A stretch of DNA of 64,000 bases, taken from NCBI RefSeq assembly GCF_000238595.1, contig NZ_AGTS01000159.1, forward strand, positions 1-64,000. The letters are read 5' to 3'. The stretch is from Acidovorax sp. NO-1. Its GTDB lineage: Bacteria; Pseudomonadota; Gammaproteobacteria; Burkholderiales; Burkholderiaceae_C. A model generated the notes under the pieces. The model had not been told where the DNA came from. It did no database searches and saw only the letters and a list, made by a program, of their open reading frames with translations. Shown piece by piece: positions 4,260-59,542 of this stretch. Both the position numbers and the translations under genes were made by a program. Each line of letters starts with the position of its first letter. The stretch's first letter is position 1.

Positions 4260-4557
4260 GGTTCAAAACATCCGCGGATGCATCGGTGAACTTTTGCATG
4301 AACGGTTGGCGGGTTTCCCGCCGGGGCCGATCGGCCGAATTGGGTGGGCTGCTGAGGAAAAGAGGGATTTGCTATTGAAAGCGTAGCTTGCGGCGCTTGT
4401 ATTTCAAGCGCTGGAGGCCAATTTGGCTTGATAGGGACTGAGCGCCGTTTGCCTTGCCTGTGGAACTGGGAGAAGCAAGCGCCCTGGCTTCGACAGGCCC
4501 AACGCGCGGTGGCTGGGCATGCACCCATGGCCTCGGCGTTGGCCTGGGCGTGGAGCC
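4260..4557. other. Intergenic gap between res and recJ
   Basis: About 300 bases without a supported gene between the convergent res and recJ. It holds a perfect hairpin GGCGGG-TTT-CCCGCC at 4308-4322, an adjacent 12-base palindrome GGCCGATCGGCC at 4325-4336, and one copy of the R1 repeat at 4366-4432. The hairpin lacks a following T run, so it is at best a weak terminator for res. The remainder shows no feature I recognise. It also marks the change from lower-GC restriction genes to the high-GC chromosome. Confidence 0.6.
4366..4432 (+). repeat. R1 dispersed three-hairpin repeat, copy 1
   Basis: Forward-orientation copy of the R1 element. It shows the family layout: GCTA...TAGC arms, then GCGCTT-n7-AAGCGC (here 4394-4413 region), then GGCC...GGC. 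It is wholly intergenic, between res and recJ. The other ten copies in the window are listed separately. Confidence 0.75.
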
Positions 4558-6273
4558 CTACAGCTGCGCCCCCTCCACCAGAAACTGCACCTTGCGCTCG
4601 CCCTTCCATTCGTTCACATCCAGCCGGAAGGCCAGCAGCACGCGCGCAGGCAGCTGCTCGGTGTGACCGAACCAGATGGCGTCCACCGGGTTGCCCTGGT
4701 GGATGATCTTGATGGACAGGTGGTTTTTGGCCTCCCCCACCAGGCGCTGGCTCACGATTTGCACTTCTTCGCTGAAGGTGGGCGGCAAGAAGCCCTGGCC
4801 CCAGACCTCGCGGTGCAGGGTGTCCACGATGTCGGCGCGGCAGTATTCGGGCGCCAGCGGGCCGTCGGTTTCTATCTTGCGGGTGAGGGTGGCGGCGTCC
4901 AGCCATTCCTGCGCGACCTGGGCCAGCGCCTGCTCGAAGGTGTCGAACGCGTCGGCATCTACCGTGCAGCCCGCCGCCATGGCGTGGCCGCCAAACTTGA
5001 GCAGCACGCCCGGGTGGCGCTTGGCCACCAGGTCGAGCGCATCGCGCAGGTGAAAGCCGGGGATGGAGCGGCCGGAGCCCTTGAGCTCGTGCGCCTTGCC
5101 CGGCGCGCTGCTGGCGGCAAACACAAAGGTCGGGCGGTGCAGCTTGTCCTTGATGCGGCTGGCCACGATGCCCACCACGCCCTCGTGAAAGTCCGGGTCG
5201 AACACGCTGATGGCCGGCGGCGGCTCTTCGTCTTCCTGGAACAGGCTCTCGGCCATCAGCATGGCCTGGTCGCGCATGCCGCCCTCGATCTCGCGGCGTT
5301 CGCGGTTGATGCCGTCAAGCAGGCCCGCCAGCTCGGCGGCGCGGACTGCGTCGTCGGTCAGCAGGCATTCGATGCCCAGCGTCATGTCGGCCAGGCGCCC
5401 TGCGGCGTTGATGCGCGGGCCTAAGGCAAAGCCAAAGTCGAAGGTGGTGGCCACGGGCGCCTTGCGGCCGGCGGCGTGGAATAGGGCTGCAACCCCGGCA
5501 GGCATTTGCCCTGCGCGGATGCGCTTCAGGCCCTGGGCGACCAGGCGGCGGTTGTTGGCGTCGAGCTTGACCACGTCGGCCACGGTGCCCAGCGCGACCA
5601 GGGTGAGCAGCGGGTCGAGCTTGGGTTGGGTGGCGGCGTCGAAGTTTCCGCGCGCCCGCAGTTCGGCCCGCAGCGCCAGCAGCACGTAGAACATCACGCC
5701 CACACCGGCCATGGACTTGCTCTCGAAAGTGCAGCCGGGCTGGTTGGGGTTGACGATGGCATCGGCCGCGGGCAGCTCGGGGCCGGGCAGGTGGTGGTCG
5801 GTGACGACGACCGTGAGGCCCAGCGCCTTGGCTTCGGCCACGCCCTCCACGCTGGCGATGCCGTTGTCCACGGTGATCAGCACATCGGCCCCGCGCTCGG
5901 CCACGCGGCGGGCGATGGATGCGGTGAGGCCATAACCGTCCGTCACGCGGTCGGGCACCAGGTAGTCCACGTTGCGGGCGCCCAGCAAACGCAGGCCGCG
6001 CACGCCCACGGCGCAGGCGGTTGCGCCGTCGCAGTCATAGTCGGCCACGATGACGAGGCGCTGGTTTTGCGCGATGGCGTCGGCCAGCAGGCGGGCGGCG
6101 GTGTCAATGCCTTTGAGGCCCGAGGGGGGCAGCAATCGGCCCAGGCCGTCGTCCAGTTCGTCCTTGGCGCGCACGCCGCGTGCGGCGTACAGGCGGGCCA
6201 GCAGCGGGTGTACCCCGGCCTGCTCCAGCGCCCAGGCGGCGCGGGGAGGAATGTCTCTTGCTACTATTTTCAT
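4558..6273 (-). CDS. recJ: Single-stranded-DNA-specific exonuclease RecJ
   Basis: 5'-3' single-strand exonuclease of recombination and mismatch repair, 571 residues, the family's usual size. DHH-superfamily motifs appear in order: ADYDCDGAT, ITVDNG, TDHH, LGTVADV, and the DHHA1 motif GGHAMAAG. The start was set at ATG 6273 (MKIVARDIPP); an upstream in-frame extension exists but belongs to the preceding gene's region in another frame. The ATG overlaps the upstream stop as ATGA, implying translational coupling. Notably this overlap and the first five codons lie inside an R1 repeat copy, so the repeat supplies the coupling junction. Confidence 0.95.
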   Translation of the reverse strand: MKIVARDIPPRAAWALEQAGVHPLLARLYAARGVRAKDELDDGLGRLLPPSGLKGIDTAARLLADAIAQNQRLVIVADYDCDGATACAVGVRGLRLLGARNVDYLVPDRVTDGYGLTASIARRVAERGADVLITVDNGIASVEGVAEAKALGLTVVVTDHHLPGPELPAADAIVNPNQPGCTFESKSMAGVGVMFYVLLALRAELRARGNFDAATQPKLDPLLTLVALGTVADVVKLDANNRRLVAQGLKRIRAGQMPAGVAALFHAAGRKAPVATTFDFGFALGPRINAAGRLADMTLGIECLLTDDAVRAAELAGLLDGINRERREIEGGMRDQAMLMAESLFQEDEEPPPAISVFDPDFHEGVVGIVASRIKDKLHRPTFVFAASSAPGKAHELKGSGRSIPGFHLRDALDLVAKRHPGVLLKFGGHAMAAGCTVDADAFDTFEQALAQVAQEWLDAATLTRKIETDGPLAPEYCRADIVDTLHREVWGQGFLPPTFSEEVQIVSQRLVGEAKNHLSIKIIHQGNPVDAIWFGHTEQLPARVLLAFRLDVNEWKGERKVQFLVEGAQL

Positions 6274-6324
6274 AGCTGGTTGCGCAGATCTGTAAAGCGC
6301 TGGGGCCTGAAAAGGCTTTGAAAA
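6257..6324 (+). repeat. R1 dispersed repeat, copy 2, forming the recJ start junction
   Basis: Forward-orientation copy with GCTAC...TAGC arms, GCGC...AAGCGC core and GCCTGAAAAGGC as third hairpin. On the minus strand it encodes the last 17 or so residues of the upstream protein and the first residues of RecJ, including the ATGA stop-start overlap at 6270-6273. Confidence 0.75.
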
Positions 6325-7226
6325 CGCTGGGCCAGCGTGCGGGGGGCGGTGTGGAAGGCCAGCGTGTTGCGCTCGCCGCACAGGGTCAGTTGCACCGCCG
6401 CGCCGCTTTCGGCTGTGCGCAGCAGATCGGCCACCGGGCCTGCGTCCAGCGCCGTCCACGCAGCGGTCCAGGCGCGCCAGTCTTCGTTCAGTGCCGCGTC
6501 GTGCAAGGTGGTGGGCACCGTCGGTGCAGTGGCGGCAGAGGCCGGGGGAGAGACAAGAACGCCGGTGCCATGCACCCAGAACGAGTTGATCACCGGCAAC
6601 CCGCGCTCCGAGCGCTCGTCGTTGAAAGCGTGGGTGTAAAGCAGCATCTGCATCTCGCTGTGCAGGCGATGCAGGGTGCGGGCCGCTTTCGCATCGGGCA
6701 TCCAGGCGCGCACGTCGCGTTGCAGCACGCGCTCCAGCGAGGCGGTTGCCAGGTCGGCAAACAGCGGGCTGGTGGCCAGCCAGCGTGTGGGCTGGTCGTA
6801 GTGCAGGGTGATGCCGTCTTCGGCAAACCAGGGCGAGACGATGGCCAGCAGCGCGCGCGATGCGGCGTCATCCAGCGCGAGGTGCTCAGGGTTGCGCAGC
6901 GTGACGTGGTCGGTGCTGACCTGCCACTGGCAGGGGTTGACAAACGCCCAGGCGTCACTGCTGGGTGACTGGCCCTGCTGGTGGCGGTGCCACGCGGCCC
7001 AGGGGATGCGGCCGTCCTGCGCGGGCAGGCCGAGGGCGCACGCCAGGGCGCGTTCGTGGGGGGCGGAGAAGCTGGTCTCCTCGCCGCTGTCACTGTGGGT
7101 GGGATGGGGGCTGAGCCGGGCCAGGAGCCGGTCCAGGTGGGGCAGGGCCAGGCCCTGCAGGGCTTGCTGGCATCCGGTGGCTGCGCTGGCGGCGTAGGGA
7201 ATGAGCAAATGGTTGGTGTCCGACAT
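6270..7226 (-). CDS. Conserved protein upstream of recJ (COG4255-like, sometimes annotated phosphoglycerate mutase)
   Basis: 318 residues from ATG 7226 (MSDTNHLLIPYAAS); a longer in-frame extension to 7295 lacks support. It resembles a betaproteobacterial family that sits next to recJ and is often annotated, without proof, as a cofactor-independent phosphoglycerate mutase or regulatory protein. Features are a conserved LPVINSFWVHGTG segment and a central tract of acidic and aromatic residues; no membrane segment or signal peptide is seen. It ends by overlapping the recJ start as ATGA. Its last 17 residues are encoded by an R1 repeat. It is divergent from lolC, with an 80-base gap that must hold both promoters. 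Function remains unknown. Confidence 0.75.
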   Translation of the reverse strand: MSDTNHLLIPYAASAATGCQQALQGLALPHLDRLLARLSPHPTHSDSGEETSFSAPHERALACALGLPAQDGRIPWAAWHRHQQGQSPSSDAWAFVNPCQWQVSTDHVTLRNPEHLALDDAASRALLAIVSPWFAEDGITLHYDQPTRWLATSPLFADLATASLERVLQRDVRAWMPDAKAARTLHRLHSEMQMLLYTHAFNDERSERGLPVINSFWVHGTGVLVSPPASAATAPTVPTTLHDAALNEDWRAWTAAWTALDAGPVADLLRTAESGAAVQLTLCGERNTLAFHTAPRTLAQRFQSLFRPQRFTDLRNQL

Positions 7227-7306
7227 GGGCCTATTGTCCGGGATGCCACAATCTGCCCCGCCCGCGCCAGACATTCCGTCTGTTGCGGGCGCCACCTTAT
7301 TGATCC

Positions 7307-8560: not shown

Positions 8561-8709
8561 GAAACACCCCCCTGAGACGCTTCGCGTCTTCCCCCCGCTC
8601 TCGCATTGCTGCGCAATGCGGGCAGGGGGACGCAGCCAGCGCGGCGGGGCGGCCCTTGCGCGGCTGCCTTGGCCTGGCGAGCGCCAGTTTCATGCCATGG
8701 ATATCTGAG
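8561..8709 (+). repeat. R2 structured repeat, copy 1 (between lolC and lolD)
   Basis: Starts with GAAACACCCCCCTGAG directly after the lolC stop and runs to the lolD ATG. It contains two perfect hairpins: AGACGC-TTC-GCGTCT (8575-8589) and CGCATTGC-TGC-GCAATGCG (8602-8620), then a GGGGGACGCAGCCAGCGC tract. The second copy at 55250-55443 has the same layout with compensatory changes in both stems. Confidence 0.8.
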
Positions 8710-20399: not shown

Positions 20400-20414
20400 G
20401 CAGGAGCACCGACC

Positions 20415-22044: not shown

Positions 22045-23349
22045 ATGCCCATACCGTTTCACCCCCGGCAGCATCCCCACCGGGCGATGCTGCACAACGA
22101 AATCCACGCCCGCCCGCCCGAGGCGATCACGTCGCCCGTGGCCATCGTGCACATTGTCATGCTGGCCGATGCCGCCGGGCGTGAGGCGAGCCGGGCGCAT
22201 GTGGCCGCCCTTTTGCGCAACCACCACCTGGCCCTGCCCGATGCGGATACCAACCACCTGCGCATGGACCTGGGGGCCTACCGCCTGCGCTGGGAGCTGC
22301 ACACCGAGTTTGTCTCCTGGACCTTCATGGTGCCCATGAGCGCCGAGGCCTTTGGCGAGCGCGAGCCCGCCAGCGCCGCCGATGTGGTGCCGCGGGACTG
22401 GCTGGCCGCATTGCCCGGGCAGTGCCTGTGCAGCCTCAACCTGTGGGTGCTGCCCACGCACACGTTCGGATCGGGTTCGCTGGTCAGGCATGTGCTGCAT
22501 GAGGACACGCTGGTGGCCTCCACCGTGGCCGATGGGCATGGCGAGGTGTACACCGACTTTGCGATCCACGCCGATGGGTTCTCGCGCATGGTGCTGCTGG
22601 CCGGCGGCATGACCCAGCGGCGCCTGGGCCGCCTGGTGCAGCGCCTGCTCGAAATCGAAACCTACCGCATGGCCGCGCTGCTGGGCCTGCCCGCCGCACG
22701 CGAGGCGGCCAGCGCACTGGCCTTTGCCGAGCGGGAGCTCGCTGCGCTGGCGGACGCGATCCGCACCGCCAACCGCGATGCCGAGCCCGCACTGCTGGAC
22801 CGGCTCACCCGGCTGGCCGGGCAGGTGGAGAGCCAGTATGCAGCCACGCACTCGCGTTTTTCGGCCAGCAGTGCCTACTTTGAATTGCTGGACCGCCGCA
22901 TCCAGGACATCGCCGAATCGCGCCTGGCCGGCATGCAGACCATCCGCGAGTTCATGGACCGGCGCCTCACGCCCGCACGCAGCACCTGTGAATGGGCTGC
23001 CCGGCGGCAGGATGCGCTGTCGCAACGGGTATCGCGCATGAGCAACCTGCTGCGCACACGGGTGGAGATTGAGCAGCAGCAAAGCAGCCAGTCGCTGCTG
23101 ACCGCGATGAACCACCGGCAGGATCTGCAGCTGCAGATGCAGTCCACCGTGGAGGGGCTGTCGGTGGCGGCCATCACTTACTACATCGTGGGCCTGGTCA
23201 GTTATCTGGCGAAGGCCGCGCAGGCGCTGGGCTGGCCCCTGTCGCCCGAAACCACGGCGGCGCTGGCGATCCCGGTGGTGGCGGCCGGTGTGTGGTGGTC
23301 GCTGCGGCGCCTGCACCACCGGGTGTTTCGCAAGCCCCCGGCGGGCTGA
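22045..23349 (+). CDS. DUF3422 family protein
   Basis: 434 residues. The opening PHRAMLHNEIHARPPEAI and the central VPRDWLAALPGQCLCSLNLWVLP region match DUF3422. A coiled-coil region runs from about residue 215 to 370, and two C-terminal membrane segments (about 373-395 and 405-425) separated by a short loop end in a basic tail. The protein is thus a C-terminally anchored membrane protein with a large cytoplasmic part. Its role is unknown. Confidence 0.88.
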   Translation: MPIPFHPRQHPHRAMLHNEIHARPPEAITSPVAIVHIVMLADAAGREASRAHVAALLRNHHLALPDADTNHLRMDLGAYRLRWELHTEFVSWTFMVPMSAEAFGEREPASAADVVPRDWLAALPGQCLCSLNLWVLPTHTFGSGSLVRHVLHEDTLVASTVADGHGEVYTDFAIHADGFSRMVLLAGGMTQRRLGRLVQRLLEIETYRMAALLGLPAAREAASALAFAERELAALADAIRTANRDAEPALLDRLTRLAGQVESQYAATHSRFSASSAYFELLDRRIQDIAESRLAGMQTIREFMDRRLTPARSTCEWAARRQDALSQRVSRMSNLLRTRVEIEQQQSSQSLLTAMNHRQDLQLQMQSTVEGLSVAAITYYIVGLVSYLAKAAQALGWPLSPETTAALAIPVVAAGVWWSLRRLHHRVFRKPPAG

Positions 23350-23445: not shown

Positions 23446-24444
23446 ATGCCTGCCACGTGGGCCATCGCCGCAGCGGCCGGGTACGGCCGTGCCGTCATTC
23501 TCTTGCGAAAATTCTCATCAAAATTGGTTCAAACGCAATCTGGTAAAGCGCAAGTAGCTACTAAAAATGTAGCGACTGGCATCACGCTGGCCCTCCTGGG
23601 CTCCATCGCCTTCAGTGGCAAGGCCATCATCGTGAAGCTGGCATACCGCCATGGGGTGGATGCGGTCACGCTCATCATGTACCGCATGCTGTTTGCACTG
23701 CCCATCTTTGCCGTGATGGCCTGGTGGGCCAGCCGGGGTAAGCCGCCGCTCACCCGCAAGGACTGGCTGGGCGTGCTGGGGCTGGGGCTCACCGGTTACT
23801 ACCTGGCGAGCTTTCTCGACTTCGCAGGGCTGGCCTACATCAGCGCCAGCCTGGAACGCCTGATCCTGTACCTCAACCCCACCCTGGTGGTGATGCTTGG
23901 CTGGGTGCTGTACCGGCGCGGCATTCGCTGGGGGCAGGCGCTGGGCATGCTCATCAGCTATGCCGGGGTGGTGCTGGTATTCGGCCACGAAGCCAACCTG
24001 CAGGGTGCTGACGCCGCATGGGGTGCGCTGCTGGTGTTCATGAGCGCGGTCAGCTATGCCATCTATCTGGTCTACAGCGGTGAGCTGGTGCAGCGCCTGG
24101 GCGCATTGCGCCTGGTGGGCCTGGCCACCACCGTGGCCTGCCTGCTGTGCCTGCTGCAGTTCGTGCTGCTGCGCCCTTTGAGCGCCGCGGTGGTGGCCCC
24201 GGAGGTGATCTGGCTGTCCGTCCTCAACGCCACGCTGTGCACCGCGGCACCGGTGCTGATGGTGATGATGGCCATCGAGCGCATCGGCGCGGGCACCACC
24301 GCGCAGACCGGCATGGTGGGGCCGCTGTCCACCATCCTCATGGGGGTGTGGATTCTGGGGGAGCCGTTCACCGTGTGGGTGGCTGCCGGTACGGCCCTGG
24401 TTCTGGTGGGCATCTTTGTGTTCACCCAGCTGGCGCGCCGCTGA
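23446..24444 (+). CDS. EamA family (DMT) transporter
   Basis: Drug/metabolite-type exporter with ten membrane segments and two EamA repeats (GITLALLGSIAFSGKA onward, and WGALLVFMSAVSYAIYLVY onward). The start is uncertain: ATG 23446 gives 332 residues, TTG 23524 gives 306, which is closer to the family norm, and neither has a good ribosome site. The first residues before the first membrane segment (about LVQTQSGKAQVATKNVA) are encoded by an R1 repeat, so the N-terminus has been replaced or extended by it. Substrate unknown. Confidence 0.82.
   Translation: MPATWAIAAAAGYGRAVILLRKFSSKLVQTQSGKAQVATKNVATGITLALLGSIAFSGKAIIVKLAYRHGVDAVTLIMYRMLFALPIFAVMAWWASRGKPPLTRKDWLGVLGLGLTGYYLASFLDFAGLAYISASLERLILYLNPTLVVMLGWVLYRRGIRWGQALGMLISYAGVVLVFGHEANLQGADAAWGALLVFMSAVSYAIYLVYSGELVQRLGALRLVGLATTVACLLCLLQFVLLRPLSAAVVAPEVIWLSVLNATLCTAAPVLMVMMAIERIGAGTTAQTGMVGPLSTILMGVWILGEPFTVWVAAGTALVLVGIFVFTQLARR
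23516..23573 (-). repeat. R1 dispersed repeat, copy 3, at the N-terminus of the EamA gene
   Basis: Reverse-orientation copy: CAAAATTGG, ACGCAA...AAAGCGC core, AGCTA...TGTAGC arms. It lies in frame across the likely translation start of the EamA transporter and is more diverged than the intergenic copies. Confidence 0.6.
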
Positions 24445-34355: not shown

Positions 34356-34366
34356 GTACGCTATTA

Positions 34367-34440
34367 TTTCGCTATTGAAAATATAGCTGTATGCGCAATG
34401 CTGTAAAGCGCTGAAGCCTGTTTTGGCTCAATTTTTCAAA
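34367..34440 (+). repeat. R1 dispersed repeat, copy 6, between NUDIX and xdhB genes
   Basis: Forward copy: GCTATTGAAAATATAGC arms, GCGCAATGCTGTAAAGCGC core, AGCCTGTTTTGGCT third hairpin. It lies in the convergent gap and its tail reaches across the xdhB stop (34428-34430), so it may end both transcripts. Confidence 0.8.
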
Positions 34441-36845: not shown

Positions 36846-38350
36846 GCTGTTTCCTCCAGGCGGAAGTTTTCCACGCTCACCGCGTCTTCGCCCTGGCTTT
36901 CGAGCCAGAACCGCTGCCACAGGCTGGCCAGCACCGCGCTGCGGTAGGCGCCACTGGCGCGCATGTCGGAGATGGGGCTGAACTCGGCCTGCAGCGTGTG
37001 TGCTGCGCGGGCGATGGTGTCGGCGGTCCAGGGCTGGCCGGTGAGTGCGGCCTCGGTCTGGCGCGCGCGGGCCGGGGTGGCAGCCACACCGCCCGCGCCG
37101 ATGCTGGCGCGGCGCACCACGTCGGCTTCGATGTCCAGATTGATGACAAGGCAGACGGCAGAAATATCGTCGTCGAAGCGCTTGGAAATCTTGTAAGCCC
37201 GAAGCACTTCCGTGACGCCCGGCCTGGGCACCACGATGCGCACCAGCAGCTCGTCGGGCGCCATCACGTTCTGGCGGTAGCCGGTGTACAGGTCTTCCAG
37301 CGCCAGCGTGCGCTCGCCGCGCACGCTGGCCAGCACCACCTGGGCACGCAGCGCGATGAGCAGCGGCATGGAATCGCCAATGGGCGAGCCATTGGCCACG
37401 TTGCCCCCCAGCGTGCCCGAGTTGCGCACCGGCAGGCCCGCAAAGCGCGTGGCAAAGCTGTGCAGCTGCGGCCATTGCGCGGTGAGGGCGGCAAACGCAT
37501 CCGTCAGCGTGACGGCTGCGCCGAGGGTGATGGCGCGTGTGTCCTGCTGCACCTGGCGCAGCTCGGCCACACGGGTCACGTCCAGGATGCGCCCGTACTG
37601 CTTGTGCTGCTTGGTGATCCACAGGCCCACGTCGGTGCAGCCGGCCACCACCTGCGCCGTGGGGTGCGCCGCGCGCGCGGCCAGAAGGTCGGGCAGGGTG
37701 GTGGGGGAAATATAGGAAGAATTGGCCTCCAGCGCTTGCTGGTCAAGCGCAAGAAGCTCCAGTTTTTGTAGCAACTGAGCCTCGTTCACCGCCATGGCGG
37801 GCAGGGCGGCCATCTGCTGCGCGGCATCGAGGATGGGACGGTAGCCGGTGCAGCGGCACAGGTTGCCCGAGAGTTCTTCCTGCGCCAGTTCGCGGGTGAT
37901 GGGTTCACCGTGGCAAACGTGGTTCTGGTACATGCCGAAGAGGCTCATGACGAACCCCGGTGTGCAGAAGCCGCACTGCGAGCCGTGGCACTGGACCATC
38001 GCCTCCTGTGCCGGATGGAGCGTGATGGTTTGTTGTGCAGCGGGCGCCGTATCACCCACCGGCTGGATCAGCGGGTCCTCGGCCAGGTCCTCCACCGTCC
38101 ACAGCGCCATGCCATCCACCGAATGCGCCAGGCGGATGCAGCTGTTCACCGCGCTGTAGTGCACCTTGCCGCCGCGCGCCTCGCCCAGCACCACGGTGCA
38201 GGCGCCGCAGTCGCCTTCGCCGCAGCCTTCCTTGGTGCCGGTGCAGCCCAGGTCTTCGCGCAGCACCTCCAGCAGGGTGCGGTCGGGTGGTACATTGCCC
38301 AGCGCCACGGGCTGGCCTCGGCGCAGGAATTGCAAGGGTCTTGTTGTCAT
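36842..38350 (-). CDS. xdhA: Xanthine dehydrogenase iron-sulfur/FAD subunit XdhA
   Basis: 502 residues from ATG 38350. Residues 1-165 form the two [2Fe-2S] domains (CTGTKEGCGEGDCGACTVV; CGFCTPG with CRCTGYRP), residues about 200-380 the FAD-binding domain (VVAGCTDVGLWITK, LPVRNSGTLGGNVANGSPIGD), then the flavoprotein C-terminal domain. The linker between the iron-sulfur and FAD domains (NEAQLLQKLELLALDQQAL region) is encoded by an R1 repeat in frame. The start codon lies inside a perfect palindrome at 38344-38355. Divergent from the LysR gene, which probably regulates it. Confidence 0.95.
   Translation of the reverse strand: MTTRPLQFLRRGQPVALGNVPPDRTLLEVLREDLGCTGTKEGCGEGDCGACTVVLGEARGGKVHYSAVNSCIRLAHSVDGMALWTVEDLAEDPLIQPVGDTAPAAQQTITLHPAQEAMVQCHGSQCGFCTPGFVMSLFGMYQNHVCHGEPITRELAQEELSGNLCRCTGYRPILDAAQQMAALPAMAVNEAQLLQKLELLALDQQALEANSSYISPTTLPDLLAARAAHPTAQVVAGCTDVGLWITKQHKQYGRILDVTRVAELRQVQQDTRAITLGAAVTLTDAFAALTAQWPQLHSFATRFAGLPVRNSGTLGGNVANGSPIGDSMPLLIALRAQVVLASVRGERTLALEDLYTGYRQNVMAPDELLVRIVVPRPGVTEVLRAYKISKRFDDDISAVCLVINLDIEADVVRRASIGAGGVAATPARARQTEAALTGQPWTADTIARAAHTLQAEFSPISDMRASGAYRSAVLASLWQRFWLESQGEDAVSVENFRLEETA
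37716..37774 (-). repeat. R1 dispersed repeat, copy 7, inside xdhA
   Basis: Reverse-orientation copy: AATTGGCCTCCAGCGCTT, GCTGGT loop, AAGCGC, then TTTTTGTAGC arm. It is translated in frame as the interdomain linker of XdhA. Confidence 0.78.
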
Positions 38351-38355
38351 GACAA
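38344..38355. promoter_or_regulatory. Palindrome TTGTCATGACAA over the xdhA start codon
   Basis: Perfect 12-base palindrome whose centre is the xdhA ATG (complement of 38348-38350). It lies in the 104-base gap shared with the divergent LysR gene. A repressor or LysR-type contact site is possible, but chance cannot be excluded for 12 bases. Confidence 0.35.
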
Positions 38356-38454
38356 ACGCCACTTCGATCTTGGATGGAAAGGTTCAGCAGAGGGTAGAAC
38401 GCAGTCCCGCTACCGGCATATGCGCAAGCTTATGGCACCCATGCCCCCACCGCT

Positions 38455-39387
38455 ATGAGAGACCACGCCCTTTTCGACAAGATAGACCTCCATCTCATAA
38501 GGGTCTTGCACACCGTGCTCACAGAACGCAGCGTATCGAGGGCCGCCGTCCGCCTGGGCATGCACCAGCCGGCGGTGTCGGCTGCGCTCAAGCGCCTGCG
38601 CGACCTGGCAGGCGACCCGCTCTTGGTGCGCTCTGGCGCCAGCATGATGCCCACCGATGCCGCGCTGCGCATGGTGGAGCCCGCAGGGGCCATCCTGCGC
38701 GCGGCCGAGGCGCTGTTTTCGGATGCGCGGGGGTTTGATCCGCGCACGGCCACCCGCACCTTCCGTGTGGCGGCCAGCGACTACCTCGACCCACTTTTTT
38801 TACCCCAGCTCGTGGCGCGCATCAAGGTCGAAGCCCCTTTGTGCCCGATCGAAATCCTGCCCCTGTCGGCCGACGCGCACTACCACGCGCACCTGGCACA
38901 GGGCGAGGTGGATGTGGTGATCGGCAACTGGCCCCAGCCGCCGGATGACCTGCACATGGGCCGCCTGTTTGGCGACGAGGTGGTGTGCCTGGTCAGCAAG
39001 GACCACCCCGCCGTGCGGCGCGGCTGGGACGTGGAAAGCTGGCTGGCCGCCGAGCACATTGCGCCCACGCCCACCCACCCCGGCGCGCGCGGCGTGATCG
39101 ACGCCCACCTGGACAGTCTCTCCATGCAGCGTCACATCACGGCGCGCTGTGCGCATTTCAGCCTGATCCCCAGCATCGTGGCATCGAGCTTGCTTGTGCT
39201 GACCACCGGCCGCCAGTACTGCGAACGGTATGTCGAGCAACTGCCGCTGGCCATCCTGCCGTGCCCGGTGCCGTTTCCCCGGCTCATGTATTACCAGCTG
39301 TGGCATGCACGCACGCACCACTCGGCCGCGGCGGCCTGGTTGCGCGAATGTGTGAAAACCGTGGCTGCTTCGCTACGAAAAGAATAG
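38455..39387 (+). CDS. LysR-family transcriptional regulator, likely of xdhAB
   Basis: 310 residues. N-terminal helix-turn-helix (DLHLIRVLHTVLTERSVSRAA, LGMHQPAVSAALKRLRD) in residues 9-66 and a substrate-binding LysR domain from about 90. Divergent orientation from xdhA with a 104-base gap fits the usual LysR arrangement, suggesting control of xanthine dehydrogenase and perhaps of the purine importer downstream; that is inference. The last residues (ASLRKE) and the stop are encoded by an R1 repeat that continues into the gap. Confidence 0.9.
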   Translation: MRDHALFDKIDLHLIRVLHTVLTERSVSRAAVRLGMHQPAVSAALKRLRDLAGDPLLVRSGASMMPTDAALRMVEPAGAILRAAEALFSDARGFDPRTATRTFRVAASDYLDPLFLPQLVARIKVEAPLCPIEILPLSADAHYHAHLAQGEVDVVIGNWPQPPDDLHMGRLFGDEVVCLVSKDHPAVRRGWDVESWLAAEHIAPTPTHPGARGVIDAHLDSLSMQRHITARCAHFSLIPSIVASSLLVLTTGRQYCERYVEQLPLAILPCPVPFPRLMYYQLWHARTHHSAAAAWLRECVKTVAASLRKE

Positions 39388-39429
39388 CTGTTGGCGCATG
39401 CTGAATAAGCGCAAGAAGGTGTTTTGATT
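39367..39429 (+). repeat. R1 dispersed repeat, copy 8, across the LysR stop codon
   Basis: Forward copy: CGCTACGAAAAGAATAGCTG, GCGCATGCTGAATAAGCGC core, then GAAGGTGTTTTG. It supplies the last codons and the TAG stop of the LysR gene. Confidence 0.75.
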
Positions 39430-39467
39430 CTTATAACAAGTTGTAAAACTGAGAGACAATCCCCCGC

Positions 39468-41054
39468 ATGAGTTCTCCCCCCAATCCTTTAGCGCCTGGT
39501 GCGGCGCCGCCACGGCTGCAGCTGGTGGGCATCACCAAACGCTACCCGGCCGTGGTGGCCAACAGCGGCGTGTCGCTCACGGTGCTGCCGGGCGAAATCC
39601 ACGCCGTGCTGGGCGAAAACGGCGCGGGCAAGTCCACGCTGATGAAAATCATCTACGGCTCGGTCAAGCCCGACGAAGGCAGCGTGTTCTTCAACGGCCA
39701 GGCCGTGCAGGTGCGCAACCCGCAAGAGGCGCGGGCCCTGGGCATTGCCATGGTGTTCCAGCATTTCAGCCTGTTTGACACCCTCACCGTGGCCGAGAAC
39801 GTGTGGCTGGGGCTGGACAAGAGCCTGACGCTGGCCGAAGTGACCAGCCGCATCACCGCCAAGGCGGCCGAATACGGCCTCGACATCGACCCCCTGCGCC
39901 CCGTGCACACGCTGAGTGTGGGCGAGATGCAGCGCGTGGAGATCATCCGCGCGCTGCTCACCGCGCCCAAGGTGCTGATCCTGGACGAGCCCACTTCGGT
40001 GCTCACGCCCCAGGCGGTCGAAAAGCTCTTTGTGGTGCTGCGCAAGCTCGCCAGTGAGGGCTGCAGCATCCTCTACATCAGCCACAAGCTGCACGAAATT
40101 CGGGCGCTGTGCACCGCCTGCACCGTGCTGCGCGGCGGCAAGGTCACGGGCGTGTGCAACCCGGCCGAGGAATCCAATGCGTCCCTGTCGCGGCTGATGA
40201 TCGGCGCCGAGCCGCCCGCGCTGGAGCACCGTGCCGTGCAGACCGGCGCCACCGTGCTGCGCGTGCAGGGCCTGTCGCTGCCGCGCGCCGACCAGTTTGG
40301 GGTGGACTTGATCGACCTGCAGTTCGAGGTGAAGGCAGGCGAAGTGGTGGGCATTGCTGGCGTGTCGGGCAACGGGCAGAGAGAGTTGCTCTATGCCCTG
40401 TCGGGCGAAGACCAGCGCGCGGAGCCCGCCAGCATCCAGGTCTCCGGCCAGAACGCAGGCCGCATGGCGCCCAACCAGCGCCGCGCCTTGGGCCTGCACT
40501 TTGTGCCCGAAGAGCGCCTGGGGCGCGGCGCCGTGCCCACCATGGGCCTGGCGCACAACCTGCTGCTCACGCGCACCAATGCGGTCAGCGGCAGTGGCTG
40601 GATCAAGGTGGGTGCGCTGCAAAAGCATGCCGAAGACATCATCCGGCGTTTCAATGTGAAGGCGGGTGGCCCCAACGCGGCGGCCAAGTCGCTGTCGGGC
40701 GGCAACCTGCAGAAGTTCATCGTGGGGCGCGAGATCGATGCCAACCCGAAGCTGCTCATCGTCTCGCAGCCCACCTGGGGCGTGGACGTGGGCGCAGCCG
40801 CGCAGATTCGCGGCTCCATCCTGGCCTTGCGTGATGCGGGCTGCGCGGTGCTGGTGGTCAGTGAGGAGCTGGACGAATTGTTTGAAATCTGCGACCGGCT
40901 GCATGTGGTGGCCAAGGGGCATCTGTCGCCCTCCGTGGACCGCGCAGACGCGACGGTGGAGCGCATTGGTGAATGGATGAGCGGGCTGTGGCATGCCGAT
41001 GTGCAGGCCCACCTGGCGCACAAGGCGCAGGCTGGGGAGGTGCACCATGCTTAA
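39468..41054 (+). CDS. BMP-type purine/nucleoside ABC transporter, ATP-binding protein
   Basis: 528-residue double ATPase of the sugar-transporter-like family used by BMP-dependent nucleoside importers. First domain: Walker A GENGAGKST near residue 50, signature LSVGEMQRVEI, Walker B VLILDEPTSVLTP. Second domain: degenerate Walker A GVSGNGQREL, signature LSGGNLQKF, and SQPTWGVDVGAA in place of the usual DEPTRGVDVGA, so the second site is probably non-hydrolytic. First gene of the importer operon; its end overlaps the next start by 8 bases. Confidence 0.9.
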   Translation: MSSPPNPLAPGAAPPRLQLVGITKRYPAVVANSGVSLTVLPGEIHAVLGENGAGKSTLMKIIYGSVKPDEGSVFFNGQAVQVRNPQEARALGIAMVFQHFSLFDTLTVAENVWLGLDKSLTLAEVTSRITAKAAEYGLDIDPLRPVHTLSVGEMQRVEIIRALLTAPKVLILDEPTSVLTPQAVEKLFVVLRKLASEGCSILYISHKLHEIRALCTACTVLRGGKVTGVCNPAEESNASLSRLMIGAEPPALEHRAVQTGATVLRVQGLSLPRADQFGVDLIDLQFEVKAGEVVGIAGVSGNGQRELLYALSGEDQRAEPASIQVSGQNAGRMAPNQRRALGLHFVPEERLGRGAVPTMGLAHNLLLTRTNAVSGSGWIKVGALQKHAEDIIRRFNVKAGGPNAAAKSLSGGNLQKFIVGREIDANPKLLIVSQPTWGVDVGAAAQIRGSILALRDAGCAVLVVSEELDELFEICDRLHVVAKGHLSPSVDRADATVERIGEWMSGLWHADVQAHLAHKAQAGEVHHA

Positions 41055-48222: not shown

Positions 48223-48245
48223 AGGGTGCCGGTAAGCTAGTGCCC

Positions 48246-49556
48246 ATGTCCGTATACCGTTCTGCCCTTTTGCGCTTTGCCGATGATGGCCGCGCCCTGT
48301 ATGACGAAGATGGCCTGCTGGCGATCGGCCCGGATGCGCAGGGCCGCCAGCGGGTGCTGGCCGCAGGTTCGTGGCAGGCACTGGGCGCGCAATACGCAGA
48401 CCAGCCCGTGACCCACCTTCCGGGGCGCATCCTTGCGCCCGGGTTTGTGGACATGCACATCCACTTCCCGCAGACGGACGTGATCGGCTCGCCCGCCGAC
48501 GGGTTGCTGCCCTGGCTGGAGAACTACACTTTTCCGCATGAAAAACGCTTTGCAGCGCCCGACTACAGTGCGCAGATAGCTCAGTTTTTCATAGCAGAGC
48601 TGTTGCGCAACGGCGTGACCACGGCGCTGGCTTTTTCCACCTCTCACCCCGCGTCGGCTGAGGCTCTGTTCGCAGAGGCCCAGCGGCACCAGATGCGCCT
48701 GATAACCGGCAAGGTGCTGCAGGACCGCCACTCGCCCGACGGCGTGCGCGACGACACCGAGCAAAGCCTCATCGATACCGAAGCGCTGATCCAGCGCTGG
48801 CATGGTGTGGACCGCTTGGGCTATGCCATCACGCCGCGGTTTGCGCCCACCAGCACCCCCGCGCAGCTGCGCGGCGCTGGCGAGCTGGCGGCGCGATACC
48901 CCGATGTGTGGATCCAGTCGCATGTGGCGGAGAACCTGGATGAAATCCGCTGGGCGCGCGAGCTGTTCCCGCGCTCGCGCAGCTACCTGGGCGTGTACGA
49001 CGATTTCGGCCTGATGCGCGAGCGAGCCGTGTATGCCCATTGCATCCACTTTGACGACGACGACCGCGCCCTGATGCGCGACACGGGCGCGGTGGCAGCC
49101 ATCAGCCCCACGAGCAACCTCTTTCTGGGAAGCGGTTTTTTCGACTACGCCAGCGCCGACCGGGTGGGGTTTGGCTACGGCCTGGCCAGCGATGTGGGCG
49201 GTGGCACGAGCTTCAGCCCCTTCCATACGATGCTGGCGGCCTATTACGTGGGGCGCACCACCGTCGAAGGTCCGCAGACCAAGCAGGGCCTGAGCCTCTC
49301 GCCCCAGCAGCTGTGGTGGCAACACACCGCGGGTGCGGCCCGGGCGCTGGGCCTTGCGGGCGTGGTGGGCAACCTGCAGCCCGGGTGCGAGGCCGACTTT
49401 CTGGTGCTCAACCCCGCAGCCACGCCGCTGCTGGCGCGCAAGACCCGCCAGGCCCGCAACCTCGATGAGCTGTTGTTTGCGCTGATCGTGCTCGGCGATG
49501 ACCGCGTTGTGGAAAAAACCGTGATTTCTCAAGCAAAATACGGCTCCAGCGCATGA
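48246..49556 (+). CDS. guaD: Guanine deaminase
   Basis: Amidohydrolase converting guanine to xanthine, 436 residues from ATG 48246 ([15 protein letters not shown]). Metal ligands and signature: [44 protein letters not shown] and [12 protein letters not shown]-terminal [11 protein letters not shown] closes the barrel. It completes the purine route to xanthine with adenine deaminase and XdhAB. The last codons (after VEKTV) and the stop derive from an R1 repeat. Confidence 0.94.
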
Positions 49557-49589
49557 TCATCAAGCGCCAATAGCTACAAAATTAATAGC
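49525..49589 (-). repeat. R1 dispersed repeat, copy 9, across the guaD stop codon
   Basis: Reverse-orientation copy: TCAAGCAAAATACGGCTCC, AGCGCATGATCATCAAGCGCC core and TAGCTACAAAATTAATAGC arm. It encodes the last 10 or so residues of guanine deaminase and extends into the gap before dcd. Confidence 0.78.
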
Positions 49590-49635
49590 GCCCCGGGTTT
49601 TTCGGCCCTGGGGCCACAGCGCAGGGACTTCAGCC

Positions 49636-55252: not shown

Positions 55253-55443
55253 AACACCCCCCTGAGCCGCTTCGCGGCTTCCCCCGCTCTCGCAACGCTG
55301 CGCGTTGCGGGCAGGGGGACGCAGCCAGCGCACGCAAGCGAAGCGCTGGCTACGCAGCTTGGCGGCCCTTGCGCAGCTGCCCGGGCATGGGCCGCGCCGG
55401 TTTTGTGGGGTGTGGGTGACATACGGCGCCATGGAGAACTGAG
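55250..55443 (+). repeat. R2 structured repeat, copy 2 (between the metallopeptidase and SulP genes)
   Basis: Begins TGAAACACCCCCCTGAG at the metallopeptidase stop and ends at the SulP ATG. Hairpins AGCCGC-TTC-GCGGCT (55265-55279) and CGCAACGC-TGC-GCGTTGCG (55291-55309) match copy 1 in shape, with paired substitutions in both stems. A third palindromic stretch, CGCAAGCGAAGCGCTGGCTACGC region, is extra here. The last bases before the ATG (ATGGAGAACTGAG) also resemble copy 1 (ATGGATATCTGAG). Confidence 0.8.
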
Positions 55444-57579
55444 ATGTCCCCTGCTGAGTCCCTGCAGCCTCTCCGGTCGCCGGGCATCGCCGCCGCGTGG
55501 TCGGCGGCGGCGGTCACGGTCCCGCATGCCGTCGGCCTGGGCCTGCTGGCTTTTGCGCCCTTGGCGGCAGACCATTCCCTGGCAGCACTGGCGTTGTGGT
55601 CGGCAGCCCTGCCGGGGCTGCTTCTCACGCTGGCGTTGCGGCGCGCGGGGGTGGTCTATGCGCCCACCACCGTGGTGGCGCTGCTGTTTGCGGCGGTGCT
55701 GGCCACCGCCCATGGCGCGGCGCCTGCGCTGGGCCTGAGTGCGCGCCAGGTACTGGCGGTGAGCGGGGCCACGGTGGCACTGGCGTTTGTGTTTCAGTGG
55801 CTGCTGGGGGTGCTGCGCCTGGCCTCGGTGGCGCGTTTCCTGCCCGTCTCGGTCACGCATGGCTTTGCGGCCGGGGTGGGGCTGTCGATGGTGGTGGGGC
55901 AGGTGCGCAACGGCTTTGGCGCGGGCGCAGATGCCTCGTGGGACGCGCGCACCGGTTGGCACCTGTTGGCGGCAGTCGCGGTAGTGGGGCTGGCGTGGGG
56001 TCTGCGCCGGCGCTGGCCCCGCATGCCGGGGCTGATGACCGCTGTGGCCGTGGTGGCGCTGGCCGTGGCAGCGGCGGGGCTCTGGGGCCGCGGGCTGGGG
56101 GATGTGTTTGCTCCTGCCGTGCAGCCCAGCGTGTTTGCCGGCCCGATGTGGCCGGACTGGACGGGCGTTCCCTGGGTGGCGCTGGCGCAGCGGTACGGGT
56201 CGGAGCTGGTGGTGCTGGCGCTGTTGATGGCGTTGGTCAACAGCCTGGAGATCCTGGTGTTCAACCAGGAGCTGGAGCTGGACCACGGCCTGCGCGGCAA
56301 TGCCAACCTGACCCTGCGCCGCGAGAGCCTGCTGGGCGTGTTGTGCGGGCTGGCCGGGATGATTCCCGCATCCACCAGCGCATCGCGTTCGCGCATCGTG
56401 CTGGCGCAGGCGGGTGCGTCCCGCGACGCACCGCGCTGGCATGCCGGCATCATGCTGGGCGTGGCCCTGACGGGCGCCTGGTGGCTGCACTGGGTGCCCA
56501 TGGCCTGTCTGGCGGGGGGGCTGGTGCTGGCGGGGCTCATGCAGGTTCCGGGGCTCATGTGGTCGCTGCGCTATGCACAACGCTCGCGGGTGACCTGGGC
56601 GCAAAGCTGGCTGGTGGCGCTGGTGTTTGCGGTGATGGGCGGCGTGGGCGCGCTGGTGGCGGGGCTGGTGGTGGCCACCTTCGTGCTGCTGCACGACTCT
56701 GCGGCCAAGGTGCTGCGCCATGTGCGGCTCGATGGCGAGCTGCGCTCGCGCCGGCTGCGGCGCGCGGGGTCGGACACCTGGCTCTCGCCGCGCATGAACC
56801 AGGTGGCCGTGTTTGAACTGCAGGGCGTGATGTCGTTTGGCGTGGCGGCCCACCTGGCCGAGCAGGTGCGCCTGCTGCTGCAGCCGCGCCACCGCTGGGT
56901 GATTCTGGATGCAGGCCGCGTGCCCGCCTGGGACAGCACGGCCTTGGCGCAGCTGCGTGCGCTGGTGCGTGATCTGGACCAGCAGGGCATTGCCGCCGCC
57001 GTGGCCTCGCTGGACCCGGTGGCGGCCGAGCAGGCGGGCGAGCCGGTGCGCGCCTTTGCCGACCTCGACCGCGCCCTGGAATGGGCCGAGGCCGGCATCC
57101 TCGCGCAGCGCCCCATCGAGCAGCGCCCGGCCCGCCCGGAGCGGGACCTGCTGGGCGAGATGGGCGAGGGCGTGCCCCGGGCAGCAGCCGAGGCCCTGAT
57201 GGCGGTGCTGGAGCCACTGGCCGTGCCGCCCCATGGGGTGGTGTTCCGCGCGGGTGATACCGACCACGACCTGCTGGTGGTGAAGTCGGGCCACATCACG
57301 CTGGTGACCCAGTGGCCGCCGGACAAGGGGCTGCGCCTGGCCACGGTGGGGCCGGGCATGGCGTTTGGCGAGATGGCGTTTCTCAATGGTGCGGCCCGCA
57401 GCGCCTGCGCGGGCTCCGAGCGGGGGCCCGCGCACCTGGTGCGCCTGTCTCGGGCGCACTTTGACGCCTGGGCCCGGCAATACCCCGAGGCAGCGCTCAC
57501 GGTGATGAATAACCTCGCCCAGATCGGGGCGAGGCGGCTGGCGGTGACCACACGGCAATTGCGGGCCGTACTGGAATAA
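55444..57579 (+). CDS. SulP-type anion transporter fused to STAS and cyclic-nucleotide-binding domains
   Basis: 711 residues. Residues 1-420 are a SulP-like membrane domain (VTVPHAVGLGLLAFAPLA, LPVSVTHGFAAGVGLSMV, IPASTSASRSRIVLAQAGA); 450-545 a STAS domain (VFELQGVMSFGVAAHLAEQ, WDSTALAQLRALV); 590-690 a cyclic-nucleotide-binding fold with VVFRAGDTDHDLLVVKSG and a phosphate-binding cassette FGEMAFLNGAARSA that keeps the key Glu and Arg. Transport of sulfate, bicarbonate or a dicarboxylate could therefore be gated by cAMP or a related ligand. The start follows an R2 repeat; an R1 copy follows the stop. Confidence 0.88.
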   Translation: MSPAESLQPLRSPGIAAAWSAAAVTVPHAVGLGLLAFAPLAADHSLAALALWSAALPGLLLTLALRRAGVVYAPTTVVALLFAAVLATAHGAAPALGLSARQVLAVSGATVALAFVFQWLLGVLRLASVARFLPVSVTHGFAAGVGLSMVVGQVRNGFGAGADASWDARTGWHLLAAVAVVGLAWGLRRRWPRMPGLMTAVAVVALAVAAAGLWGRGLGDVFAPAVQPSVFAGPMWPDWTGVPWVALAQRYGSELVVLALLMALVNSLEILVFNQELELDHGLRGNANLTLRRESLLGVLCGLAGMIPASTSASRSRIVLAQAGASRDAPRWHAGIMLGVALTGAWWLHWVPMACLAGGLVLAGLMQVPGLMWSLRYAQRSRVTWAQSWLVALVFAVMGGVGALVAGLVVATFVLLHDSAAKVLRHVRLDGELRSRRLRRAGSDTWLSPRMNQVAVFELQGVMSFGVAAHLAEQVRLLLQPRHRWVILDAGRVPAWDSTALAQLRALVRDLDQQGIAAAVASLDPVAAEQAGEPVRAFADLDRALEWAEAGILAQRPIEQRPARPERDLLGEMGEGVPRAAAEALMAVLEPLAVPPHGVVFRAGDTDHDLLVVKSGHITLVTQWPPDKGLRLATVGPGMAFGEMAFLNGAARSACAGSERGPAHLVRLSRAHFDAWARQYPEAALTVMNNLAQIGARRLAVTTRQLRAVLE

Positions 57580-57643
57580 TTTTTGTAAGAAAAACGGCTG
57601 CAGCGCTTTATGGGTAAGCGCTATAAGCTATCAAATATGAAGC
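57580..57643 (-). repeat. R1 dispersed repeat, copy 10, after the SulP gene
   Basis: Reverse-orientation copy directly after the stop: AAAAACGGCTGC, AGCGCTTTATGGGTAAGCGCT core and TAGCTATCAAATATGAAGC-type arm. Intergenic. Confidence 0.8.
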
Positions 57644-57816
57644 ATTCGAGCCGAAAATTGCCCTCGAAAGAATGCGCTCTGTACCACGCCGACTGGGTGA
57701 AAAATCGCTTTTCGGGCCACCGGTGCGACAATAGGCAGCTCAGGCAACGCTGAACAAGTCATTTGCGCAATGCGCATTCCCCGCACAGGGGCCGGTTTGT
57801 GGCGTTGCAAATCCTT

Positions 57817-57922: not shown

Positions 57923-59440
57923 ATGACAAGTTCCTTTTCCAATCTATCGCTGGCTGAGCCGCTGGCGCGTGCCGTAGCCGAAATGGGCTACGAGTCCATG
58001 ACGCCCATCCAGGCGCAGGCCATTCCGGTGGTACTCACCGGCCAGGACGTGATGGGTGCCGCCCAGACGGGCACCGGCAAGACCGCCGCGTTCTCGCTGC
58101 CCTTGCTGCAGCGCCTGCTCAAGCACGAGAGCAGTTCCACATCCCCGGCCCGCCACCCCGTGCGCGCCCTGGTGCTGTTGCCCACGCGCGAGCTGGCCGA
58201 CCAGGTGGCCCAGCAGATTGCGCTGTATGCCAAATACACCAAGCTGCGCAGCACCGTGGTGTTTGGCGGCATGGACATGAAGCCCCAGACCATCGAGCTG
58301 AAAAAAGGCGTCGAAGTGCTGGTGGCCACGCCTGGCCGTTTGCTGGACCACATCGAAGCCAAGAATGCGGTGCTCAACCAGGTCGAGTACGTGGTGCTCG
58401 ACGAGGCCGACCGCATGCTGGACATCGGTTTCCTGCCCGACCTGCAGCGCATCCTCTCGTTCCTGCCCAAGCAGCGCACCACGCTGCTGTTCAGCGCCAC
58501 GTTCTCTCCCGAGATCAAGCGCCTGGCCAGCAGCTACCTGCAAAACCCCGTCACCATCGAGGTGGCCCGCCCGAACGAAACGGCCTCCACCGTGGAGCAG
58601 CGCTTTTACAGCGCGGGCGACGACGACAAGCGCCGCGCCATCCACCAGGTGCTCAAGAGCCGGGGCATCAAGCAGGCATTCATCTTCGTGAACAGCAAGC
58701 TCGGTTGTGCCCGTCTGGCGCGCAGCCTGGAGCGCGAAGGCCTCAAGACCACCGCGCTGCATGGCGACAAGAGCCAGGACGAGCGCCTGAAGGCGCTCGA
58801 AGCCTTCAAGAGCGGCGAGGTCGATCTGCTGGTGTGTACCGATGTGGCCGCGCGTGGCCTGGACATCAAGGACGTGCCGGCGGTGTTCAACTTTGACGTG
58901 CCGTTCAACGCCGAAGACTACGTGCACCGCATTGGCCGCACGGGCCGTGCGGGCGCATCGGGCCTGGCGGTCACGCTGGTGTCGGGCAGCGATGCCCGCC
59001 TGGTGGCCGACATCGAGAAGCTGATCAAGAAGAAGATCGAACTCGAAGCCATCGAATACGAAGAAGACCAGCCAAGCATTCGGAATCAAGGCCGCATCAA
59101 CGACGGCCGCCGCGCCTGGCGCGAAGCTGGCGAGACGGGCGATGGACGCGATGCCATCCCGGCGGCCCCGCGCCGCGAGCGCGAACGCGAACGCGAACAC
59201 CGTGGTGGCCGCGAAGCCCGCGAGCCGCGTGAACAGCACCGGGGCTTCCGCCCGGCCGTTGCCTCGCGCGATCCGTTTTTTGAAAAGCCGTATGAAGCCA
59301 GTGCGCCTGCCGATGCGGCGCCCGCCTGGGAAGCGGCCAAGTCGGCACCGCGCAGCAGCGTGTCGGCCAACATCAAGCCCAAGCGCAAGGTGGCTGCCCT
59401 CTTCAAGGCGGCCCAGCCGGAAACCTCGGCGCAGGGATGA
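57923..59440 (+). CDS. rhlE: DEAD-box RNA helicase RhlE-type
   Basis: 505 residues. Q motif with F in SFSNLSLAEPL and TPIQAQAIP; Walker A AQTGTGKT; PTRELA; TPGRLLD; DEAD box VLDEADRMLD; SAT in LFSATF; HRIGRTGRAG motif VI. The C-terminal 130 residues are basic and low-complexity (REREREREHRGGREAREPREQ split in repeats), ending KPKRKVAALFKAAQPE, the RhlE-type RNA-binding tail. It unwinds structured RNA, often in ribosome assembly or cold growth. A terminator follows. Confidence 0.93.
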   Translation: MTSSFSNLSLAEPLARAVAEMGYESMTPIQAQAIPVVLTGQDVMGAAQTGTGKTAAFSLPLLQRLLKHESSSTSPARHPVRALVLLPTRELADQVAQQIALYAKYTKLRSTVVFGGMDMKPQTIELKKGVEVLVATPGRLLDHIEAKNAVLNQVEYVVLDEADRMLDIGFLPDLQRILSFLPKQRTTLLFSATFSPEIKRLASSYLQNPVTIEVARPNETASTVEQRFYSAGDDDKRRAIHQVLKSRGIKQAFIFVNSKLGCARLARSLEREGLKTTALHGDKSQDERLKALEAFKSGEVDLLVCTDVAARGLDIKDVPAVFNFDVPFNAEDYVHRIGRTGRAGASGLAVTLVSGSDARLVADIEKLIKKKIELEAIEYEEDQPSIRNQGRINDGRRAWREAGETGDGRDAIPAAPRREREREREHRGGREAREPREQHRGFRPAVASRDPFFEKPYEASAPADAAPAWEAAKSAPRSSVSANIKPKRKVAALFKAAQPETSAQG

Positions 59441-59445
59441 GGACC

Positions 59446-59468
59446 AGGCCTTGTTCAAGGCCTTTTTT
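59446..59468 (+). terminator. Rho-independent terminator after rhlE
   Basis: Stem AGGCCTTG / CAAGGCCT with a TT loop, followed by six T residues (59463-59468). It lies 5 bases after the rhlE stop and just before an R1 copy. Confidence 0.88.
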
Positions 59469-59477
59469 CATGGTTTC

Positions 59478-59542
59478 ATAGTCTTTTTGGCCTCTCGCGC
59501 TTGCTGTGCAAGCGCAGTCAGCTACAAAATTGGTAGCTAAAG
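59478..59542 (-). repeat. R1 dispersed repeat, copy 11, between rhlE and the nos cluster
   Basis: Reverse-orientation copy in the convergent gap: TTTTTGGCCTCTCGCGCTTGCTGTGCAAGCGC core region and a perfect terminal hairpin AGCTAC-AAAATTG-GTAGCT. Intergenic. Confidence 0.82.

Follow-up and report, generated by a model that had tools for sequence, protein, structure and literature searches.

The 64,000-nucleotide stretch of Acidovorax sp. NO-1 DNA analyzed here (contig NZ_AGTS01000159.1, positions 1 to 64,000; hereafter the window) carries copies of a dispersed palindromic repeat, R1, that is real, widespread and apparently undescribed. We consider R1 to be, with a probability of roughly 60%, an old, now quiet, non-autonomous palindromic DNA element of the Comamonadaceae that resembles the repetitive extragenic palindromic (REP) sequences and was perhaps once moved by the resident REP-associated tyrosine transposase (RAYT). 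R1 is REP-like in behaviour and, by the tests made, falls outside the REP/RAYT class. Its most unusual feature is loop inversion, each of its two hairpins carrying a loop that occurs in both orientations.

The repeat unit, its range and its loops

A column profile over 92 copies gave a unit of 70 bp with sharp ends, information being at background level beyond both borders, rather than the unit of about 60 bp proposed in an earlier note on this DNA. The consensus, ATTGCTATTAAATTGATAGCTGCTAGCGCTTGATGGATAAGCGCTAGAGGCCAATTTGACTTAAAATTCT, derives from 305 copies and the repeat has a GC content of 43%. This set joins 123 copies from two genomes to 196 from at least 114 named loci that match the exact core with loop positions free; a 30-bit limit was applied and identical rows were removed, and orthologues are possibly still included. 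The first hairpin (H1, GCTA-N9-TAGC) has GCTA and TAGC arms around a 9-nt loop, and the second (H2, GCGCTT-N7-AAGCGC) has GCGCTT and AAGCGC arms around a 7-nt loop, with weaker outer pairing. Among 50 copies, 88% of the pair cells are formed in H1 and 87% in H2 (its three outer pairs included). Two of the three hairpins that the earlier note had called conserved therefore stand, whereas the third (H3, GCC..GGC) pairs in 49% of cells and is not a conserved feature. The TAGCT/GCGC core is invariant and the loops are free. Columns 55–57 hold a TTT tail in about 70% of copies and AAA in about a fifth to a quarter, switching as a block, and these tail types are perhaps subfamilies.

Copies are plentiful outside the window, where their absence would have spoken against a repeat family. 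At a threshold of 15 bits or more we counted 77 in 464 kb of the genome (the window, 300 kb of contig C84 and 100 kb of contig C19) and, with the same profile, 46 in 400 kb from G010, a relative, while Markov-shuffled and reversed sequence gave no matches even at 10 bits or more. Extrapolating to the 5.01 Mb genome gives about 830 copies; at 70 bp each, they would take up about 1% of it. A strict 36-nt pattern allowing at most two mismatches matched the 5.01 Mb genome 355 times (169 plus, 186 minus), and its reversed form did not match that genome at all. Strict-pattern counts differ from 1 to 419 among same-genus genomes. Strict matches occur in 79 of the 299 Comamonadaceae genomes and in 41 of the 126 genera, up to 420 per genome, and many genera have none. 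In a sample of the order Burkholderiales, four of 200 genomes matched a covariance model, all of them Comamonadaceae, in a search whose stricter filters lose weak matches. Among the matches listed, most named records that contain the strict core belong to Acidovorax, and the other genera are Simplicispira, Giesbergeria, Ottowia, Comamonas, Paenacidovorax, Extensimonas, Ramlibacter and Rhodoferax, along with some loosely labelled metagenome-assembled genomes. The earlier note mentioned similar sequences in Comamonadaceae genomes, and in the family and order searches the matches are indeed confined to this family. Phage records gave no match to the consensus.

Searches aimed at the repeat found no description in the literature covered, which is mostly open-access, so absence is not proven; this agrees with the earlier note, which gave no formal description, and six stretches of the repeat sequence occur in no paper of that literature. 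Palindromes with GTAG or CGTC tags (PMC3733652) are likewise high-copy and prokaryotic, and differ in carrying a tag that R1 lacks; that text names none of Comamonadaceae, Delftia, Comamonas or Verminephrobacter. As described by Hot et al. (2011, PMC3110155), the BRE repeat measures 75–91 bp, has about 69% GC in Bordetella, is often tandem and reaches at most 29 copies. It shares with R1 a betaproteobacterial range that includes Comamonadaceae, a mostly intergenic location and some in-gene copies. We nevertheless rejected identity with BRE, since R1 is set apart from that description by its 70 bp, 43% GC, single copies and presence in hundreds.

The two orientations of the loops were evident in the 305 distinct copies, where confident assignments placed 180 H2 loops in a GATGGAT-like state and 73 in its reverse complement. 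For 127 of the 305 H2 loops the exact reverse complement is also present among the loops, compared with a mean of 28 and a maximum of 45 after column permutation, and the controls gave 4 reverse-only and 2 complement-only matches. With two orientations allowed, the log-likelihood of the model rose by 188 units for H2 and by 87 for H1 (15 permuted nulls, all at most 1.4), and there was no gain for an unpaired spacer. In the 3′ tail the mixture test showed no gain for the reverse complement, and a complement-only gain of 80.8 reflects the AAA and TTT tail types. The orientation of H1 does not depend on that of H2 (Fisher p 0.88), and because the arms are palindromic, a turned loop amounts to a turned hairpin. 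Each hairpin may have turned singly, through template switching between its short inverted arms in replication or through hairpin resolution during copying, which would leave loops in both orientations and arms still complementary. Template switching that inverts a loop while its complementary arms are kept has precedent (Monttinen and Loytynoja 2022, PMC8794818; PMC8604942). The events described there are scattered and lie in RNA genes, whereas here a whole repeat family shows two orientations in two hairpins. Hundreds of such copies provide material for testing whether palindromes are kept up by selection or by template switching.

Comparisons of orthologous copies weigh against an ongoing process. 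No loop had changed in 52 orthologous pairs between this genome and a conspecific one (G040), and one of 11 H1 loops had changed between two further genomes (G001 and G037). Among 328 non-independent pairs from 30 orthologous loci, the reversed fit was the better one for 69 H2 loops, and under a strict criterion five pairs were left at two doubtful sites, 7-nt loops being short enough to match by chance. Inversion at one same site was thus searched for among orthologues and not demonstrated, so the flips may date from copying and not from later mutation. Inversion of the whole element was not seen in 391 orthologous pairs, most of which are not independent.

Gene ends, reading frames and RNA structure

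To place the repeat relative to genes, we took non-genic copies from this genome, its relatives and the named loci that had a called gene on both sides. These 306 copies divide into 116 tandem sense, 90 tandem antisense, 83 convergent and 17 divergent, compared with 188 tandem, 45 convergent and 73 divergent expected from intergenic length; a smaller context set, largely part of this one, concurs (p 2e-8). The element is no more than 30 bp away from a gene stop in 232 of 372 cases and from a gene start in 110 of 240, and some copies provide the stop codon itself, for example the one at 39369. Under our preferred reading, copies would have survived where they are harmless, directly past stop codons.

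The same location could suggest a functional RNA 3′-end element (a terminator, Rho-site or mRNA stabiliser) held at gene ends by selection, a reading we consider unlikely. The RNA fold is more stable than shuffled sequence (mean z −1.8 over 80 of the 305 copies), TTTT occurs within 16 nt past H2 on the plus strand in 108 of 305 copies compared with 12 copies that have it within 14 nt on the minus strand, and sites are common to different species. However, orientation to the upstream gene is weakly biased (the 116 sense and 90 antisense copies above) and the type of tail is independent of it, with T/A counts of 73/26 in sense and 55/19 in antisense copies (p 1.0; TTTT p 0.31). On tail orientation we rejected an intrinsic terminator, and the termination signal suggested in the earlier note is supported neither by the orientation of the copies nor by the T-run tail. 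Covariation in the stems of 50 copies scored 0.111 compared with 0.100 in shuffles, 62 of 500 of which scored as high, and RNAalifold retained only four GCGC pairs with a covariation term of 0.02. Since no measure of covariation stood clear of the shuffles, compensatory changes in the stems were rejected as well, and selection on RNA structure is not supported. That loops vary while stems are kept is correct as a description, but it is identity of sequence, not compensatory change, that keeps the stems. Rfam gave no match, either over the entire window at gathering scores or at 34300–39500 with E ≤ 5. Also counting against an RNA element at gene ends are the copies inside called genes (41 of the 347 placed) and the many Comamonadaceae genera that lack the repeat.

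Copies inside genes encode recurring peptides, depending on the reading frame. In a first set, 20 of 123 copies were inside called genes and 19 of these 20 had coding signal on both sides, a signal that the gene caller itself uses. The copy at 37706–37775 (minus, 70 bits) lies in frame within the gene at 36842–38308 (minus; Fer2, Fer2_2, FAD_binding_5 and CO_deh_flav_C domains), where it encodes LLQKLELLALDQQALEAN in a linker ahead of the FAD domain. Of 30 orthologous loci, 24 have the repeat there at 28 bits or more, two (L210 and L222) have a segment of equal length scoring 8 and −2 bits, and four (L214, L217, L221 and L233) have an ordinary 61-nt linker instead. This is the one in-frame copy inside a genuine gene that is backed by orthologues. 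Palindromic repeats in frame within protein genes are familiar from the Rickettsia palindromic elements; in-frame copies are common to both, but those elements belong to other bacteria and have another sequence, and R1 is mostly intergenic. For the copy at 39369–39438 (plus, 68 bits), whose TAG is the stop codon of a LysR-type gene (38455–39387; Pfam), both flanks were found in 14 of 30 loci, and all 14 hold a copy of 36–68 bits.

Stability of copies and the resident RAYT

In the conspecific genome all 60 sites from the window and 300 kb of C84 are occupied, 58 with normal spacing and two with indels in or beside the copy. In the reverse comparison 59 of 73 copies of that genome are present in our stretches, 12 lack flanks there, one is present with a different flank and one is replaced by a second, GC-rich repeat. 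Of 28 copies compared between G001 and G037, 14 were scored as present with unchanged orientation, although two are doubtful because they lie in gaps of 698 and 875 bp. Two are absent, of which one has left a visible remnant and the other is a weak copy; 11 lack flanks and one is too distant. The occupied shared sites across the compared genomes suggest that the repeat family is old and quiet. The copies may once have been spread by a single-strand transposase that recognised the hairpins, for which the resident RAYT is the only candidate looked for, our search having been limited to Y1/RAYT transposases; afterwards they would have been inherited vertically, with drift in loops and spacers. 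At C84:187280, identity between the two conspecific strains breaks inside a repeat copy, as if the copy had been used by recombination.

Invariance of the TAGCT/GCGC core, free loops, even spread and stable positions could also be expected of a chromosomal protein-binding palindrome (nucleoid, supercoiling or segregation), seeded and then kept by selection. We regard this as very improbable, as a unit of 70 bp carrying two hairpins is long for such a role, and strict counts range as widely within one genus as noted above and fall to nil in many genera of the family.

The genome encodes one Y1 transposase, a RAYT by NCBIfam NF047646 (85 bits, cut-off 80), with an open frame and an HFH motif. 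Of the 15 rayt loci readable in same-genus genomes, 8 have a copy or remnant of at least 10 bits abutting the stop codon; one of these scores 62 bits and the others 10–27. A sixteenth locus (L299) carries a 52-bit copy downstream of its rayt match, on the opposite strand. Upstream copies occur at rayt in G228, G249 and G314, and the arrangement of copies or remnants is inverted in several relatives. In a family set of 30 rayt loci, 13 of them without a readable frame, a copy of at least 12 bits lies in the retrieved flanks of 8 of 10 readable loci from repeat-rich genomes and of 0 of 7 from repeat-free genomes. As a baseline, copies antisense to the neighbouring gene lie at the stop of 54 of about 698 called genes. 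Because antisense copies at stops thus occur in general and these rayt loci share ancestry, adjacency to rayt is no more than suggestive; RAYT may have been the former mover, given the copies and remnants that abut the gene in some relatives. Past rayt (L286–L301), most relatives read have motifs resembling TGATRTGTCCCC and AATCTGACCCCAATTAAT after the stop, as do several repeat-free genomes, and these are possibly the true rayt end.

Several observations count against a link with RAYT and with REP-type movement. No copy of at least 10 bits flanks the rayt gene of this genome, so the flanking palindromes that the earlier note proposed to look for are missing here; its 3′ flank has a 15-bit half motif resembling H1. 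Homologues of rayt (E ≤ 0.001) occur in all 30 genomes tested, 15 chosen for their many copies and 15 for having none, and the family cut-off is exceeded in 8 of the repeat-rich and 6 of the repeat-free genomes. The consensus begins ATTGCTATTAAATTGATAGCTGCTAGCGCTT and has no GTAG/GTGG or CGTC head. Copies do not cluster (10 pairs within 400 bp compared with 15 expected); a tandem-like group of strict matches is listed in G262. No transposition event was seen between the two conspecific genomes or between G001 and G037, whether as a clean-flanked empty site, a target duplication or an insertion difference, and a clean empty site at which the target-site duplication of a DDE-transposon MITE could be judged was likewise not found in these comparisons or in the 30-locus one.

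Nunvar et al. (2010, PMC2817692) describe REP sequences that share with R1 their short palindromes, hundreds of copies, mostly extragenic location and a RAYT gene in the genome, and in some of our relatives repeat copies lie beside rayt as well. R1 is unlike them in its 70-bp unit with two hairpins, without a GT(A/G)G head or clusters of the bacterial interspersed mosaic element (BIME) type, in its unflanked rayt, and in that rayt homologues occur also where the repeat is absent. In the same source, qualifying RAYTs are found only in gammaproteobacteria, save a transferred one in Thauera. It is quite unlikely, in our judgement, that R1 belongs to a canonical REP/RAYT system whose resident RAYT still recognises and moves it. 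The open rayt with its HFH motif and the inverted copies or remnants abutting rayt in several relatives would fit such a system, as would a slight leading-strand bias of the copies (89 to 55, p 0.006) if the target were single-stranded, but this bias is confounded with gene direction and comes mostly from one contig. The flanking pair, head, clustering and correlation with rayt are all lacking, and no recent movement was seen relative to the conspecific genome. The earlier note's suggestion of a REP-like element moved by a RAYT thus fits the abundance, location and resident rayt gene, and does not fit the unflanked rayt or the lack of correlation between rayt and copies.

DUF1010, plasmid cassettes and the window copies

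Pfam PF06231 (DUF1010) matches in 10 of 21 genomes, five of them over the cut-off. At 17 of 20 loci (of 32 matches listed) the match coincides in one register with an R1 copy on the opposite strand, which covers about positions 1–22 of the model; the other three have no copy, one of them being outside the Comamonadaceae. The start of DUF1010 is therefore an antisense reading of the repeat, and the remainder of the 66-position model is other sequence that the repeat does not account for. As a correction to annotation, most DUF1010 matches examined in these genomes are antisense readings of R1. At C82:25497–25697 (L325) of this genome, DUF1010 matches over its full length, interrupted by an internal stop, and this match begins on a repeat copy.

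Ten plasmid records match the consensus, three of them from Comamonadaceae. In five of the ten, all enterobacterial, the repeat lies beneath open reading frames (ORFs) named DUF1010. The record NZ_KJ541071.1 (L322) has two such ORFs, at 1655–1945 and 2833–3150, in an array of resistance genes, each with one antisense copy (67 and 59 bits), and an Acinetobacter plasmid record has a similar array without DUF1010 annotation. The DUF1010-bearing cassettes are probably of Comamonadaceae origin, and as a mark specific to this family the repeat can reveal where mobile DNA found elsewhere came from. A more ambitious joint reading is that both hairpins inverted independently, that their arms were kept by mutation or copying at the DNA level and not by RNA selection, and that the repeat seeded in-frame protein segments and the start of DUF1010 and marks integron cassettes of enterobacterial plasmids as Comamonadaceae DNA; taken as a whole we offer this tentatively, as possible more than probable.

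Twelve copies lie in the window, five on the plus and seven on the minus strand, by a 70-column position profile built from core matches. Eleven of them had been reported in both orientations in the earlier note, and each position was confirmed by the profile and by the covariance model that the note had called for, which was built from 50 copies including these eleven and agrees with the profile in the window (E 8.5e-9 to 2.5e-13 for the eleven). Gene coordinates given here are calls of a purpose-made codon-usage caller, which covers some stretches poorly. Convergent gaps hold the copies at 4368–4437 (plus; 57 bits, E 1.6e-11), between genes 1554–4259 (plus) and 4558–6273 (minus), at 34368–34437 (plus; 63 bits, E 2.2e-11), 12 bp past the plus gene and overlapping the end of the minus gene by 10 bp, and at 59471–59540 (minus; 63 bits, E 3.3e-12), between 57983–59440 (plus) and 59550–60155 (minus). 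The copy at 6257–6326 (plus; 62 bits, E 3e-11) is at the junction of the minus-strand genes 4558–6273 and 6270–7226, that at 23507–23576 (minus; 63 bits, E 8.5e-9) lies between the tandem plus-strand genes 22087–23349 and 23632–24444, and that at 26276–26345 (plus; 52 bits, E 1.3e-10) is in the divergent gap between 25461–26072 (minus) and 26509–26967 (plus). At 33654–33723 (minus, 66 bits) a copy runs antisense within the plus-strand ORF 33078–34355, which encodes a NUDIX-domain protein (Pfam). The copy at 49523–49592 (minus; 72 bits, E 2.5e-13) overlaps the 3′ end of gene 48240–49556 (plus), and that at 57577–57646 (minus; 71 bits, E 3.7e-12) is at the stop codon of gene 55444–57579 (plus). 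The twelfth, at 48529–48598 (minus), is a weak, degenerate copy within a plus-strand gene (profile 22.7 bits; covariance model 20.8 bits, E 0.008).

The GC-rich repeat (CCCCCGCTCTCGC...GCGGGCAGGGGGACGCAGCCAGCGC) occurs in the window at 8592–8690 and 55281–55403 and is BRE-like by composition. A 25-nt piece of it matches 10 times in this genome, and at one site an R1 copy in the conspecific genome occupies the place of a repeat of this kind.

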